Shown here piece after piece: positions 34,491 through 58,817 of a stretch of 64,000 nucleotides of DNA (the first letter of the stretch is position 1; the number at the start of each line of letters is the position of its first letter). The stretch is taken from positions 496,001 through 560,000 of the forward strand of contig NZ_FOTP01000003.1 in the NCBI RefSeq assembly GCF_900114605.1. Reading direction: 5' to 3'. Position numbers and translations under genes: made by a program. This DNA is from Bradyrhizobium sp. NFR13. Its GTDB lineage: Bacteria; Pseudomonadota; Alphaproteobacteria; Rhizobiales; Xanthobacteraceae. The notes below the pieces were generated by a model. It saw only the letters and a program-made list of their open reading frames with translations. It searched no databases and was not told the DNA's origin.

Positions 34491-35054
34491 TCAGGCCGCT
34501 TTGGCCGTAGCCACGTGATTGGCGAGGACATCCATCAGCGCGGGCGAAAGGCAATCATAAGGCTCGAGTCCGAGTTCCTTGAGGCGCGCCCGTATTCCGG
34601 CCATGTCGCTCGGCTTGACGCCGGATTCAATCACCGACGAGACGAAGGCGGCGAAGCCCGGTGCGGCCGAGCCGGATTCTTCGAACAATTCGGGATGTAT
34701 GAAGTCGAGGCCGTAAAACGCATGTCCCTTGTTCTCGATACGGCCGAACATGTGCGTCCCGCATCCGGTGCAGGCATGGCGCTGGATGGTTGCCGCCTGA
34801 TCGACGATGCGCAATTTGTCGCCGTTTTGCAGCACGGTGACATTTTCGCGCGGAACCACTGCGATCACGGCAAAGGTTGCCCCATCTGGCTTCCAGCACT
34901 TGGTGCAGCCGCAGGCGTGGTTATGAGCGACGTCGCCTTTGATGCCGACCTTGACCGGTTTGTCGCTGCATTTACAGACCAGCGTTCCACCGGCAAAATG
35001 GCCTGAACCTTGTTTGACGCCGCCGTCAACGGACGGGTGGATATGAACAGTCAT
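34491..35054 (-). CDS. gfa: S-(hydroxymethyl)glutathione synthase (glutathione-dependent formaldehyde-activating enzyme)
   Basis: A 187-residue cytoplasmic zinc protein that promotes the addition of formaldehyde to glutathione, the entry step of the glutathione pathway. The zinc-binding cysteines are all visible: TLVCKCSD (about 29-31), [11 protein letters not shown] (about 50-56) and [11 protein letters not shown] (about 98-101). The C-terminal [21 protein letters not shown] is typical of Gfa. The ATG at 35054 has CCAGGAGGATAGACTG upstream; a 14-residue extension is unlikely. It follows the class III alcohol dehydrogenase gene on the same strand, and the methanol dehydrogenase gene lies further upstream, so the cluster covers methanol to formate. 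Confidence 0.93.
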
Positions 35055-35130
35055 CAGTCTATCCTCCTGGTATGATGCGTCACTTGTGTGAAGCATAGTT
35101 GTATTGGCACTCTGGTGTTGTGGCCTGCAT

Positions 35131-36240
35131 TCAGAACACGACCACCGATCGGATCGATTTTCCTTCGTGCATCAGGTCGAATCCCTTGTTGATCTCGTCC
35201 AGCTTGAGCACATGCGTAATCATCGGATCGATCTCGATCTTTCCGTTCATGTACCAATCGACGATCTTGGGCACGTCGGTACGACCGCGCGCGCCGCCGA
35301 AGGCCGTGCCTTTCCAGACGCGACCTGTGACGAGCTGGAACGGCCGGGTCGCGATCTCCTTTCCGGACTCCGCGACGCCGATGACAACGGAAACGCCCCA
35401 GCCGCGATGGCAGGCTTCGAGCGCCTGTCGCATGACCGTGGTGTTGCCGGTGCAGTCGAAGGTGTAATCGGCGCCGCCATCGGTCAGGCCCACGAGATGC
35501 TGAACAATGTCGCCATCGACCTTCTTCGGATTGACGAAATGGGTCATGCCGAAGCGGCGGCCCCATTCTTCCTTGTCGTCATTGATGTCGACGCCGACGA
35601 TCCTGTCGGCTCCGACCATCCGCGCGCCCTGAATGACGTTGAGGCCGATGCCACCGAGGCCGAACACGACGACATTGGAGCCCGGCGTGACCTTCGCCGT
35701 ATTGACCACGGCACCGACACCGGTGGTGACACCGCAGCCGATATAGCAGCTCTTGTCGAACGGCGCGTCGTCGCGGATCTTCGCCACTGCGATCTCCGGC
35801 AGCACCGTGAAGTTCGAAAAGGTCGAGCAGCCCATATAGTGATAAATCGGCTTGCCCTTATAGCTGAAGCGCGACGTGCCATCGGGCATCACGCCTTTGC
35901 CCTGGGTGGCGCGGATCGCGGTGCAGAGATTGGTCTTCTGGCTCAGGCAGCTTTTGCACTGCCGGCATTCCGGCGTGTAGAGCGGGATGACGTGATCGCC
36001 GGGCTTGACCGACGTGACGCCGGGACCGACCTCACGTACGATGCCTGCGCCCTCATGGCCAAGGATGGACGGAAAGATGCCTTCGCTGTCGAAACCATCG
36101 AGCGTATAGGCATCGGTGTGGCAAATGCCGGTCGCCTTGATCTCGACCAGGACTTCGCCAGCCTTCGGTCCTTCGAGATCGACTTCGACGATTTCAAGCG
36201 GTTTCTTTGCTTCGAAGGCGACTGCGGCGCGGGTCTTCAT
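35131..36240 (-). CDS. frmA: S-(hydroxymethyl)glutathione dehydrogenase / class III alcohol dehydrogenase
   Basis: A 369-residue zinc-dependent NAD enzyme oxidising S-hydroxymethylglutathione to S-formylglutathione. The catalytic zinc ligands lie in [14 protein letters not shown] (about 38-50) and GHEGAGIV; the structural zinc site is [17 protein letters not shown] (about 90-105); the nucleotide fold has [17 protein letters not shown]. It ends with [10 protein letters not shown], as class III enzymes do. The ATG at 36240 has GGGAG eight bases upstream; a TTG two codons earlier is possible. It lies between xoxG and gfa on the same strand. The symbols adhI and flhA are used for the same enzyme in related bacteria. 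Confidence 0.95.
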
Positions 36241-36341
36241 TCTCAACTCCCTCGGTCATTTGATCTTGCGTCATCCGGTCCTGTGCCGTCCGAGCCGGCG
36301 TCATCCGGGATTGCAGGTCAGCGGCTCGCTCGTGATCCGCA

Positions 36342-58215: not shown

Positions 58216-58227
58216 TGGCGTGGGCGA

Positions 58228-58611
58228 TTAGCCCCGCGTCCAGTAGCGATAGCCAAGCCACCCGATCAGGACTGCACTCGCGAGCCACAAGAGGATGATC
58301 GCGATCATGCCCGATCTGCTGGTCGGTCGTTCTGCGGCCTCCCGCGCCTTGATCCGGTACTCGGCCATCACTTCGCCCGGGACCAGCGCCACCACGAGCC
58401 AGATACCCAGCGGCACGATGATCAGGTCATCGAGATAGCCAAGGACCGGCACGAAGTCCGGAATGAGATCGATCGGCGACAGCGCATAGGCGGCAACAGC
58501 GATCGCGAGAACCTTCGCAAACCATGGCACCCGGGGATCGCGCGCGGCGAGATAGACGGCATGCGTGTCCGTCTTGATGTGTCGTGCCCAGCTTTTGATC
58601 CGCGTCAGCAT
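58228..58611 (-). CDS. DUF1232 (YkvA) family membrane protein
   Basis: A 127-residue protein with the DUF1232 core YALSPIDLIPDFVPVLGYLDD (about 50-70) flanked by hydrophobic segments, and a C-terminal membrane helix (GMIAIILLWLASAVLIGWLG). The family is widespread and of unknown function. The ATG at 58611 is chosen; a start six codons earlier is possible. It converges with the TonB receptor gene and closes the island. Confidence 0.88.
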   Translation of the reverse strand: MLTRIKSWARHIKTDTHAVYLAARDPRVPWFAKVLAIAVAAYALSPIDLIPDFVPVLGYLDDLIIVPLGIWLVVALVPGEVMAEYRIKAREAAERPTSRSGMIAIILLWLASAVLIGWLGYRYWTRG

Positions 58612-58817
58612 GAATGCCTCGTATCGCACAAGTCGCCTTCAGGATAGCCATTGATAATGCTGGAGAAGTTGGCGGATTTCGCTTCCCCGATACCAAGGCC
58701 CGGATCTTCCCGCCCCGGCCACCACAGGCCCCGGATGCGCCCTTTGGCGTGTTGAGGGTCCGCCCGTTTCGTGGGAAGACGGCGGAAAGCTGAAAGAATT
58801 TCCGGGAGCAAGATGCC

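Follow-up and report, generated by a model that had tools for sequence, protein, structure and literature searches.

Gene content of the island

The analysed window is a stretch of 64,000 nucleotides of contig NZ_FOTP01000003.1, deposited under Bradyrhizobium sp. NFR13 (contig C8 of a 6.22-Mb genome in 17 contigs, rated 100% complete). At positions 34491–58215 it carries genes for a XoxF-type methanol dehydrogenase and its partner proteins, for glutathione-linked formaldehyde oxidation, for an ATP-binding cassette (ABC) system of the Lut/Ped type and for a TonB-dependent receptor. Altogether, this region is very probably a chromosomal island of Tardiphaga that serves methanol oxidation by a lanthanide-dependent XoxF enzyme and acquisition of the metal. 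The window is taken as Tardiphaga DNA on account of the predicted receptor, which over its full length is 97% identical to receptors of two Tardiphaga robiniae strains and 96% identical to that of Tardiphaga sp. P9-11; the other 75 receptor loci returned came mostly from Bradyrhizobium (64–75%), with a few at 31–50%.

Every gene that the original prediction had named, from xoxF to the TonB receptor, was found. The enzymes and ABC components scored above the curated cut-off of the fitting NCBIfam model and pqqA was recognised by its motif, while the receptor, the sensor kinase and the response regulator were above Pfam cut-offs only. The proposed extent of 34491–58629 held for the core; the last open reading frame (ORF), a DUF1232 gene at 58228–58629, does not seem to belong to the island and is regarded as a neighbour only. 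This gene was seen in 10 of the 67 relatives whose flanks were complete. The core is taken to end at 58215. The listed genes are given below (cut-offs in brackets, aa for amino acids).

34491..35054, minus strand: gfa, S-(hydroxymethyl)glutathione synthase; TIGR02820 328.5 bits (234.6), start chosen by eye
35131..36240, minus strand: frmA/flhA, S-(hydroxymethyl)glutathione dehydrogenase; TIGR02818 615.6 bits (544)
36342..36917, minus strand: xoxG, c-type cytochrome; TIGR03874 266.1 bits (161.8), PDB 6onq Cytochrome c XoxG 2e-63
36941..38752, minus strand: xoxF, lanthanide-type methanol dehydrogenase, 603 aa; TIGR03075 785.9 bits (480.1), PDB 6oc5 XoxF 1085.6 bits
39195..40172, plus strand: AraC-family regulator, FeaR-like; best specific model PRK09685, 175.2 bits, below its cut-off (199)
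40292..40372, plus strand: pqqA; motif alone (MSWKTPKIVEVQVGMEINMYACAARK)
40943..41815, plus strand: 290-aa protein, unmatched in Pfam and NCBIfam; start resembles a signal peptide (by eye)
42587..42943, plus strand: 118-aa Cys-containing protein; homologues in genomes G117 and G174
42971..43801, minus strand: quinoprotein-associated SoxYZ-like carrier; TIGR04557 277.2 bits (140)
43857..44849, minus strand: quinoprotein relay zinc metallohydrolase 2; TIGR04559 393 bits (280)
44942..45835, plus strand: xoxJ; TIGR03871 310.7 bits (212.2), PDB 6onp XoxJ 8.7e-66
45828..46392, plus strand: CXXCW rhodanese-like protein; TIGR03865 232.9 bits (128.1), Pfam rhodanese
47441..48049, minus strand: LutG-like protein; 36–37% identical to the product of the G117/G174 gene between lutF and the receptor
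48046..48894, minus strand: lutF/pedC, ABC-2 type permease; TIGR03861 414.9 bits (241.4), PF01061 3.4e-30
48891..49709, minus strand: lutE/pedB, ATP-binding protein; TIGR03864 328.9 bits (302.3)
49706..50710, minus strand: pedA2-like beta-propeller; TIGR03866 510.2 bits (287.3), start chosen by eye
50695..52026, minus strand: lutA/pedA1, substrate-binding protein; open frame with the start probably at 51876, TIGR03863 483.3 bits (413.6), Peripla_BP_6
52533..53378, minus strand: frmB/fghA, S-formylglutathione hydrolase; TIGR02821 413.2 bits (281.7)
53450..54070, minus strand: NarL/LuxR-type response regulator; Response_reg and GerE above cut-off
54255..55682, plus strand: HisKA_3 sensor kinase with HAMP; Pfam, LapD_MoxY_N 23.8 bits
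55702..58215, plus strand: probable LutH-type TonB-dependent receptor; Plug and barrel above cut-off, BLAST, tree and co-occurrence

Genes inside the island that the original prediction had not listed encode an EthD-type protein, the 290-aa family-less protein, two small proteins, a methyltransferase and the LutG-like protein. The receptor coordinates mark the open frame, in which a signal-peptide-like stretch points to a later ATG. The MoxY-type periplasmic domain of the kinase (LapD_MoxY_N) stayed just below its Pfam cut-off of 25 bits.

The predicted dehydrogenase, receptor and Lut/Ped system

The best solved relatives of the window XoxF were two XoxF chains, 6oc5 and 6dam (918 bits for the latter), and the remaining solved methanol dehydrogenase chains reached 597–687 bits. 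XoxG and XoxJ likewise had their best solved matches in 6onq and 6onp, which bear those same names; the three structures 6oc5, 6onq and 6onp we take to be proteins of Methylorubrum extorquens AM1. The metal site reads 'PHDEWDYDG', i.e., the Asp-Tyr-Asp signature that had been predicted (Asp-X-Asp, not Asp-X-Ala). Two other loci of the genome were detected with the pyrroloquinoline quinone (PQQ) propeller family PF01011. The one on contig C3 encodes a methanol/ethanol-family enzyme with a haem-c-like CATCH stretch and DYT at the site; the other is a membrane GDH-type quinoprotein on contig C7 (G000:C7:605571-607310, L001) with Asp-Tyr-Asp at the aligned position. Because the C7 protein reads DYD too, the motif alone is no proof of a lanthanide enzyme, and the predicted identity of XoxF is decided by its similarity to XoxF.

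The island locus was the only XoxF/MxaF relative in the genome at E <= 1e-100 (six of eight candidates scored). A search for mxaI (PF02315) found nothing in this genome (G000) and matched in three of three other genomes; as the standard controls of this family were silent, three related genomes served as the positive check. The original statement that mxaFI is missing nearby could therefore be extended, as far as tested, to the entire genome, in which the island XoxF is the only predicted methanol-dehydrogenase-type enzyme found.

The receptor was compared with 27 loci of the order, five receptors from plasmid records, four from named genomes and the 20 TonB paralogues of its own genome (PF00593). 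The best own-genome paralogue reached 76 bits in BLAST, and four receptors of three g84 genomes scored 523–572 bits. Two of the high-scoring receptors, those of G174 (562 bits) and G117 (523 bits), follow lutG and are 40–41% identical to the window receptor. In a tree of 57 rows, calculated quickly and supported by the Shimodaira–Hasegawa-like approximate likelihood ratio test (SH-aLRT) only, one clade of 36 rows with 100% support united the window receptor with both lut-adjacent receptors; all 20 paralogues and one Novosphingobium receptor fell outside it. Three loci had been left out of the tree, L216 (ORF missed) and L037 and L038 (partial matches). The gene order in G117 and G174 is xoxF-xoxG-xoxJ, homologues of the pqqE region and lutA-propeller-lutE-lutF-lutG-receptor, and the locus numbers of M. 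extorquens AM1 in the part of PMC7391723 that was available give the same xox/pqq/lut order. These results support assignment of the predicted receptor to the LutH type.

Other receptor identities were also tried with NCBIfam models. The haem model gave 106 bits (cut-off 317), the siderophore model 105 bits (cut-off 224), the PqqU model 89 bits (cut-off 1200) and the B12 model 78 bits (cut-off 600).

The binding protein, propeller, ATPase and permease (TIGR03863, TIGR03866, TIGR03864 and TIGR03861) were all above cut-off and form one operon with overlaps of 4–16 bases. NCBIfam places these four families with PQQ-dependent alcohol dehydrogenases (an assignment by profile scores), and the permease model is named after PedC. 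Grouping of the receptor (by BLAST and tree) or of the ABC genes (by profile scores) with non-lanthanide systems, the outcome named in the original prediction as unfavourable to it, was thus not seen. By Pfam the permease belongs to ABC2_membrane (PF01061), and sub-cut-off matches linked it to DrrB and the ATPase to DrrA. Searching the solved structures with the permease sequence gave no match at E <= 1. The structure model of the permease was weak, with a predicted local distance difference test (pLDDT) score of 61, 46 close sequences and an alignment that took 45 of 64 relatives. Its fold matched two structures at E <= 0.001, an insect ABCH protein and KpsM; ABCG, Wzm and TarG followed more weakly, and NosY of NosDFY appeared from rank 13 onwards (E ~0.01). 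Beyond the ABC-2 class, which the Pfam match had shown before, these model-based matches support nothing further. With the exception of NosY, the matched proteins are known as exporters.

Several genes outside the window may complete the system. Contig C6 encodes a lanmodulin of 129 aa (G000:C6:124653-125039; L143:1483-1872) with a signal-peptide-like start, an E-value of 3.8e-39 against PDB 6mi5 and four EF hands (DPDKDG, DRDHDG, NPDKDG, NPDNDG), three of them with Pro at position 2; it is likely a periplasmic lanthanide carrier. The genome holds one strong lanmodulin match, one LutH-type receptor and one LutF. It also encodes pqqE, the RuBisCO large subunit and the formate dehydrogenase (FDH) alpha subunit (933 bits, above cut-off), where the Calvin–Benson–Bassham (CBB) cycle was searched through the RuBisCO large subunit only and FDH through its alpha subunit only. 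Together with lanmodulin, these genes are read as candidate markers of the XoxF–glutathione (GSH)–FDH–CBB route that was described in Bradyrhizobium and Sinorhizobium by Mineo et al. 2025 (as far as PMC12628762 was accessible). Two pqqA-like ORFs were noted, one in the island (40292-40372) and another near pqqE on contig C9 (L227, reverse strand at ~3731).

Occurrence in relatives and comparison with known systems

Co-occurrence was counted in 199 genomes of the order, own genome included, with limits of E <= 1e-20 for the receptor and LutF, E <= 1e-100 for the XoxF-family enzyme and E <= 1e-8 for lanmodulin. The receptor was detected in 27 genomes, LutF in 72, a XoxF-family enzyme in 62 and a lanmodulin-like protein in 19. 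All 27 receptor genomes also had LutF, 26 had a XoxF-family PQQ enzyme and 22 had a XoxF of at least about 60% identity; LutF was present in each of the 52 genomes with such a XoxF, and 16 of the 19 lanmodulin genomes had the receptor. The counts are descriptive, related genomes not being independent, and the Fisher p-values (receptor–LutF 2.8e-14, lanmodulin–receptor 6.8e-14) ignore shared ancestry and are not usable as probabilities. Genome G077, of the same family, had XoxF (80% identical) and LutF (71%), and the receptor was not found there at E <= 1e-20.

The neighbourhood of the receptor was surveyed in 10-kb flanks, and hits covering less than 30% of the query or below 40% identity were dropped (no identity limit for tonB, the histidine kinase and duf1232); 11 of 78 receptor loci had incomplete flanks and were excluded, giving the 67 named relatives. 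Near the receptor we found the kinase in 62 of them, the regulator in 63, frmB in 62, lutA in 60, the propeller and lutE in 61 each, and lutF and the lutG-like gene in 59 each. The xoxF gene lay mostly beyond the 10-kb flank and was within it in 8 of the 67. Five Bradyrhizobium genomes were read gene by gene (hits under 25% of the query dropped). The block from soxYZ to the receptor, including the lut operon, and the AraC-xoxF-xoxG-frmA-gfa block were kept in all five, and the place of the xoxF block varied: G035 and G112 have it beyond soxYZ, as in the window, G171 and G194 have it beside the receptor, and G143 carries it on a separate contig.

More distant receptors stood in various contexts. 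A Methylobacterium nodulans plasmid receptor (43% identical) has mxa-type genes and a gene for an EF-hand protein in its vicinity, and the Novosphingobium receptor (33%) adjoins PQQ dehydrogenase, SoxYZ-like and relay genes. Around the Methylocalor and Caballeronia receptors (33–34%), no PQQ or lut genes are annotated within 12 kb.

The island is not a new system: the relative Bradyrhizobium has one that is largely the same, and what the window adds is a further, unusually complete example of that known kind. For Bradyrhizobium, lut homologues and growth on methanol that depends on lanthanides were published in 2025 (Mineo et al., PMC12628762); the paper describes lutA, B, E, F and G homologues, a lutH homologue of lower similarity, upregulation of RuBisCO and FDH genes on methanol, and a XoxF–CBB locus in which xoxF, xoxG, gfa, frmA and frmB are clustered as in the window. 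The window differs in belonging to another genus, presumably Tardiphaga. A term search of the main text of that paper gave no mention of lanmodulin. In the Bradyrhizobium genomes G035, G112 and G143, the lanmodulin gene adjoins the xoxF block and a second PQQ dehydrogenase (Asp-Tyr-Asp was read in G035 and G112), whereas here lanmodulin is encoded on a different contig and XoxF is the island's single PQQ dehydrogenase.

M. extorquens AM1 shares XoxF/G/J, LutA/E/F/G/H homologues and lanmodulin with the window genome but, by its locus numbers in PMC7391723, has the pqq genes separating xox (1740-1750) from lut (1778-1785); xoxF and lutA are about 30–34 kb apart in G117 and G174, which have the same order. 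Unlike the window genome, AM1 has mxaF and is described in the part of PMC12628762 available as making no use of the glutathione route. PedA1A2BC of Pseudomonas putida consists, like the window operon, of a binding protein, a propeller, an ATPase and a permease (PMC6839425, PMC12997753), a likeness at the level of component families. In the available portion of PMC12997753, P. putida is said to be without a LutH homologue, and its Ped system serves PedH and not XoxF. In Methylosinus trichosporium OB3b, the LutH-type TonB receptor CQW49_RS02145, similar by its description, was needed for cerium-dependent XoxF expression (cited in the text seen of PMC12482762).

The new elements here are the genus, the receptor test, the lanmodulin, the conserved gene at the orf6/orf7 position discussed below and the ABC-2 type of the 'importer' permease. 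Tardiphaga thus joins the candidates for lanthanide-dependent methanol use. The open-access literature searched contained a single paper joining Tardiphaga and XoxF, PMC10994693. With its sole XoxF, single receptor and LutF genes and one lanmodulin match of high score, the genome offers a clean genetic background. As no mxa backup was found, the loss of lut genes should have an immediate effect on growth with methanol.

Proposed route and alternative explanations

In the route that we propose, a lanthanide, bare or chelated, would enter through the LutH-type receptor, would likely be carried in the periplasm by the C6 lanmodulin and would be handled at the inner membrane by LutA, the propeller, LutE and LutF, possibly with LutG. 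XoxF with the lanthanide and PQQ would oxidise methanol in the periplasm and pass electrons to XoxG, and XoxJ, the SoxYZ-like carrier, the relay hydrolase and the CXXCW protein may mature or activate XoxF, judging by their families. Formaldehyde would then be converted into formate by the cytoplasmic Gfa–FrmA–FrmB enzymes, and FDH and RuBisCO, encoded elsewhere, would finish a XoxF–CBB route. Judging by their position, the AraC protein and the sensor kinase with its response regulator probably control the island. According to the papers on these species, the Lut/Ped machine is needed in M. extorquens and in P. putida. Metal uptake at the inner membrane would follow the work in those other species, and the ABC-2 type of the permease complicates it.

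Several observations weigh against this interpretation. The link between the window receptor and LutH of AM1 is indirect, drawn through the gene order of G117 and G174. Lanmodulin was not found at E <= 1e-8 in two of the five Bradyrhizobium genomes (G171, G194). Five of the 27 receptor genomes, all of family f32, had no XoxF of at least about 60% identity: G109 and G191 had other DYD enzymes, the only match of G031 read DYA (as did a row from G109), G140 had none, and G074 was the fifth. The G140 locus (G140:C2:16001-36000, L121) has receptor, lutE and lutF homologues, with no XoxF-family match in that genome at E <= 1e-100. Finally, 30 of the 52 genomes with a XoxF of at least about 60% identity, G077 among them, had no receptor of this kind at E <= 1e-20, and therefore another entry route must serve there. 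Because of these 30 genomes we rate the proposed island slightly lower, though still as very probable, and slightly raise the small chance that the receptor, perhaps together with the ABC operon, transports something else (for example PQQ, haem, B12 or a ferric siderophore) and is a mere neighbour of xoxF. The best solved relatives of the receptor by sequence, YncD and a PQQ transporter (51 bits each), would fit that explanation, as would the weak matches to the haem, siderophore, PqqU and B12 models and the Caballeronia and Methylocalor relatives described above. Each of the named cargo families stayed below its cut-off, however, PQQ genes (pqqE and two pqqA-like ORFs) are present in the genome itself, and the receptor both shares a clade with lut-adjacent receptors and co-occurs with LutF and lanmodulin, which makes a different cargo very improbable.

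A more serious alternative, though still clearly the less probable one, is that the island is functional and serves only to detoxify methanol or to draw extra energy from it, with no growth on methanol alone. A Tardiphaga metagenome-assembled genome was recovered from soil DNA enriched with 13C-methanol, but that study grouped Tardiphaga with non-methylotrophic taxa and the recovery may reflect cross-feeding (PMC10994693), which also speaks against the route proposed here. Weak, non-growth methanol oxidation was recorded in B. diazoefficiens before the lanthanide need was known (accessible part of PMC12997859), and the CBB cycle is represented in our searches by RuBisCO only. The presence of RuBisCO and the FDH alpha subunit points the other way, as does the growth of Bradyrhizobium strains on methanol and lanthanide through the CBB cycle (same portion of PMC12628762 as above).

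The permease raised a further question, that of the direction of Lut transport, as the protein is of the ABC-2 type, which comprises mostly exporters, and NosY. It is conceivable, though improbable, that LutA, the propeller and LutEF are no ordinary importer but a NosDFY-like ABC-2 (type V) ATPase–permease, in which ATP would drive the hand-over of lanthanide among LutA, the propeller, LutG, lanmodulin and apo-XoxF (loading of XoxF or lanmodulin, or chelator exchange) and accumulation in the cytoplasm would be a side effect. The PF01061 match, the DrrB and DrrA hits, the ABC-2 proteins that made up all fold matches of the low-confidence model and the overlapping operon shared by the binding protein, propeller and permease would be compatible with such a machine. 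In its favour, too, import in P. putida was at first deduced from there being a binding protein (PMC6839425). If the machine existed, it would be, to our knowledge, the second ABC system known to load metal enzymes in the periplasm, NosDFY being the first. The open-access literature searched contained no paper joining 'ABC-2' with XoxF and lanthanide, and none joining NosDFY with lanthanide. Against this idea, NosY was not the best match of a model with a low pLDDT, and at least one importer, ABCA4, has a fold of the ABC-2 type. In M. extorquens, lanthanum deposits were cytoplasmic in the wild type and periplasmic in the lutA/E/F mutants (available text of PMC7391723). On balance, import appears the better reading for the Lut system than ATP-driven periplasmic hand-over, and with the permease recognised as ABC-2 the direction of metal movement becomes testable.

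The small and family-less proteins of the island also have counterparts in relatives. The LutG-like protein had no Pfam or NCBIfam match; its structure model (39 of 63 relatives in the alignment) was mostly helical with a pLDDT of 82.8 and gave no PDB match at E <= 0.001. The 290-aa protein (40943-41815) has counterparts of 58–60% identity in three of the five Bradyrhizobium xox islands read. The homologue of the 118-aa protein (42587-42943) sits in G117 and G174 (53–56% identical) between xoxJ and the pqqE homologue. By the AM1 locus numbers, this is the region of orf6 and orf7, which are both annotated as 'unknown' and were both among the hits of a genetic screen, as reported in the consulted part of PMC7391723.

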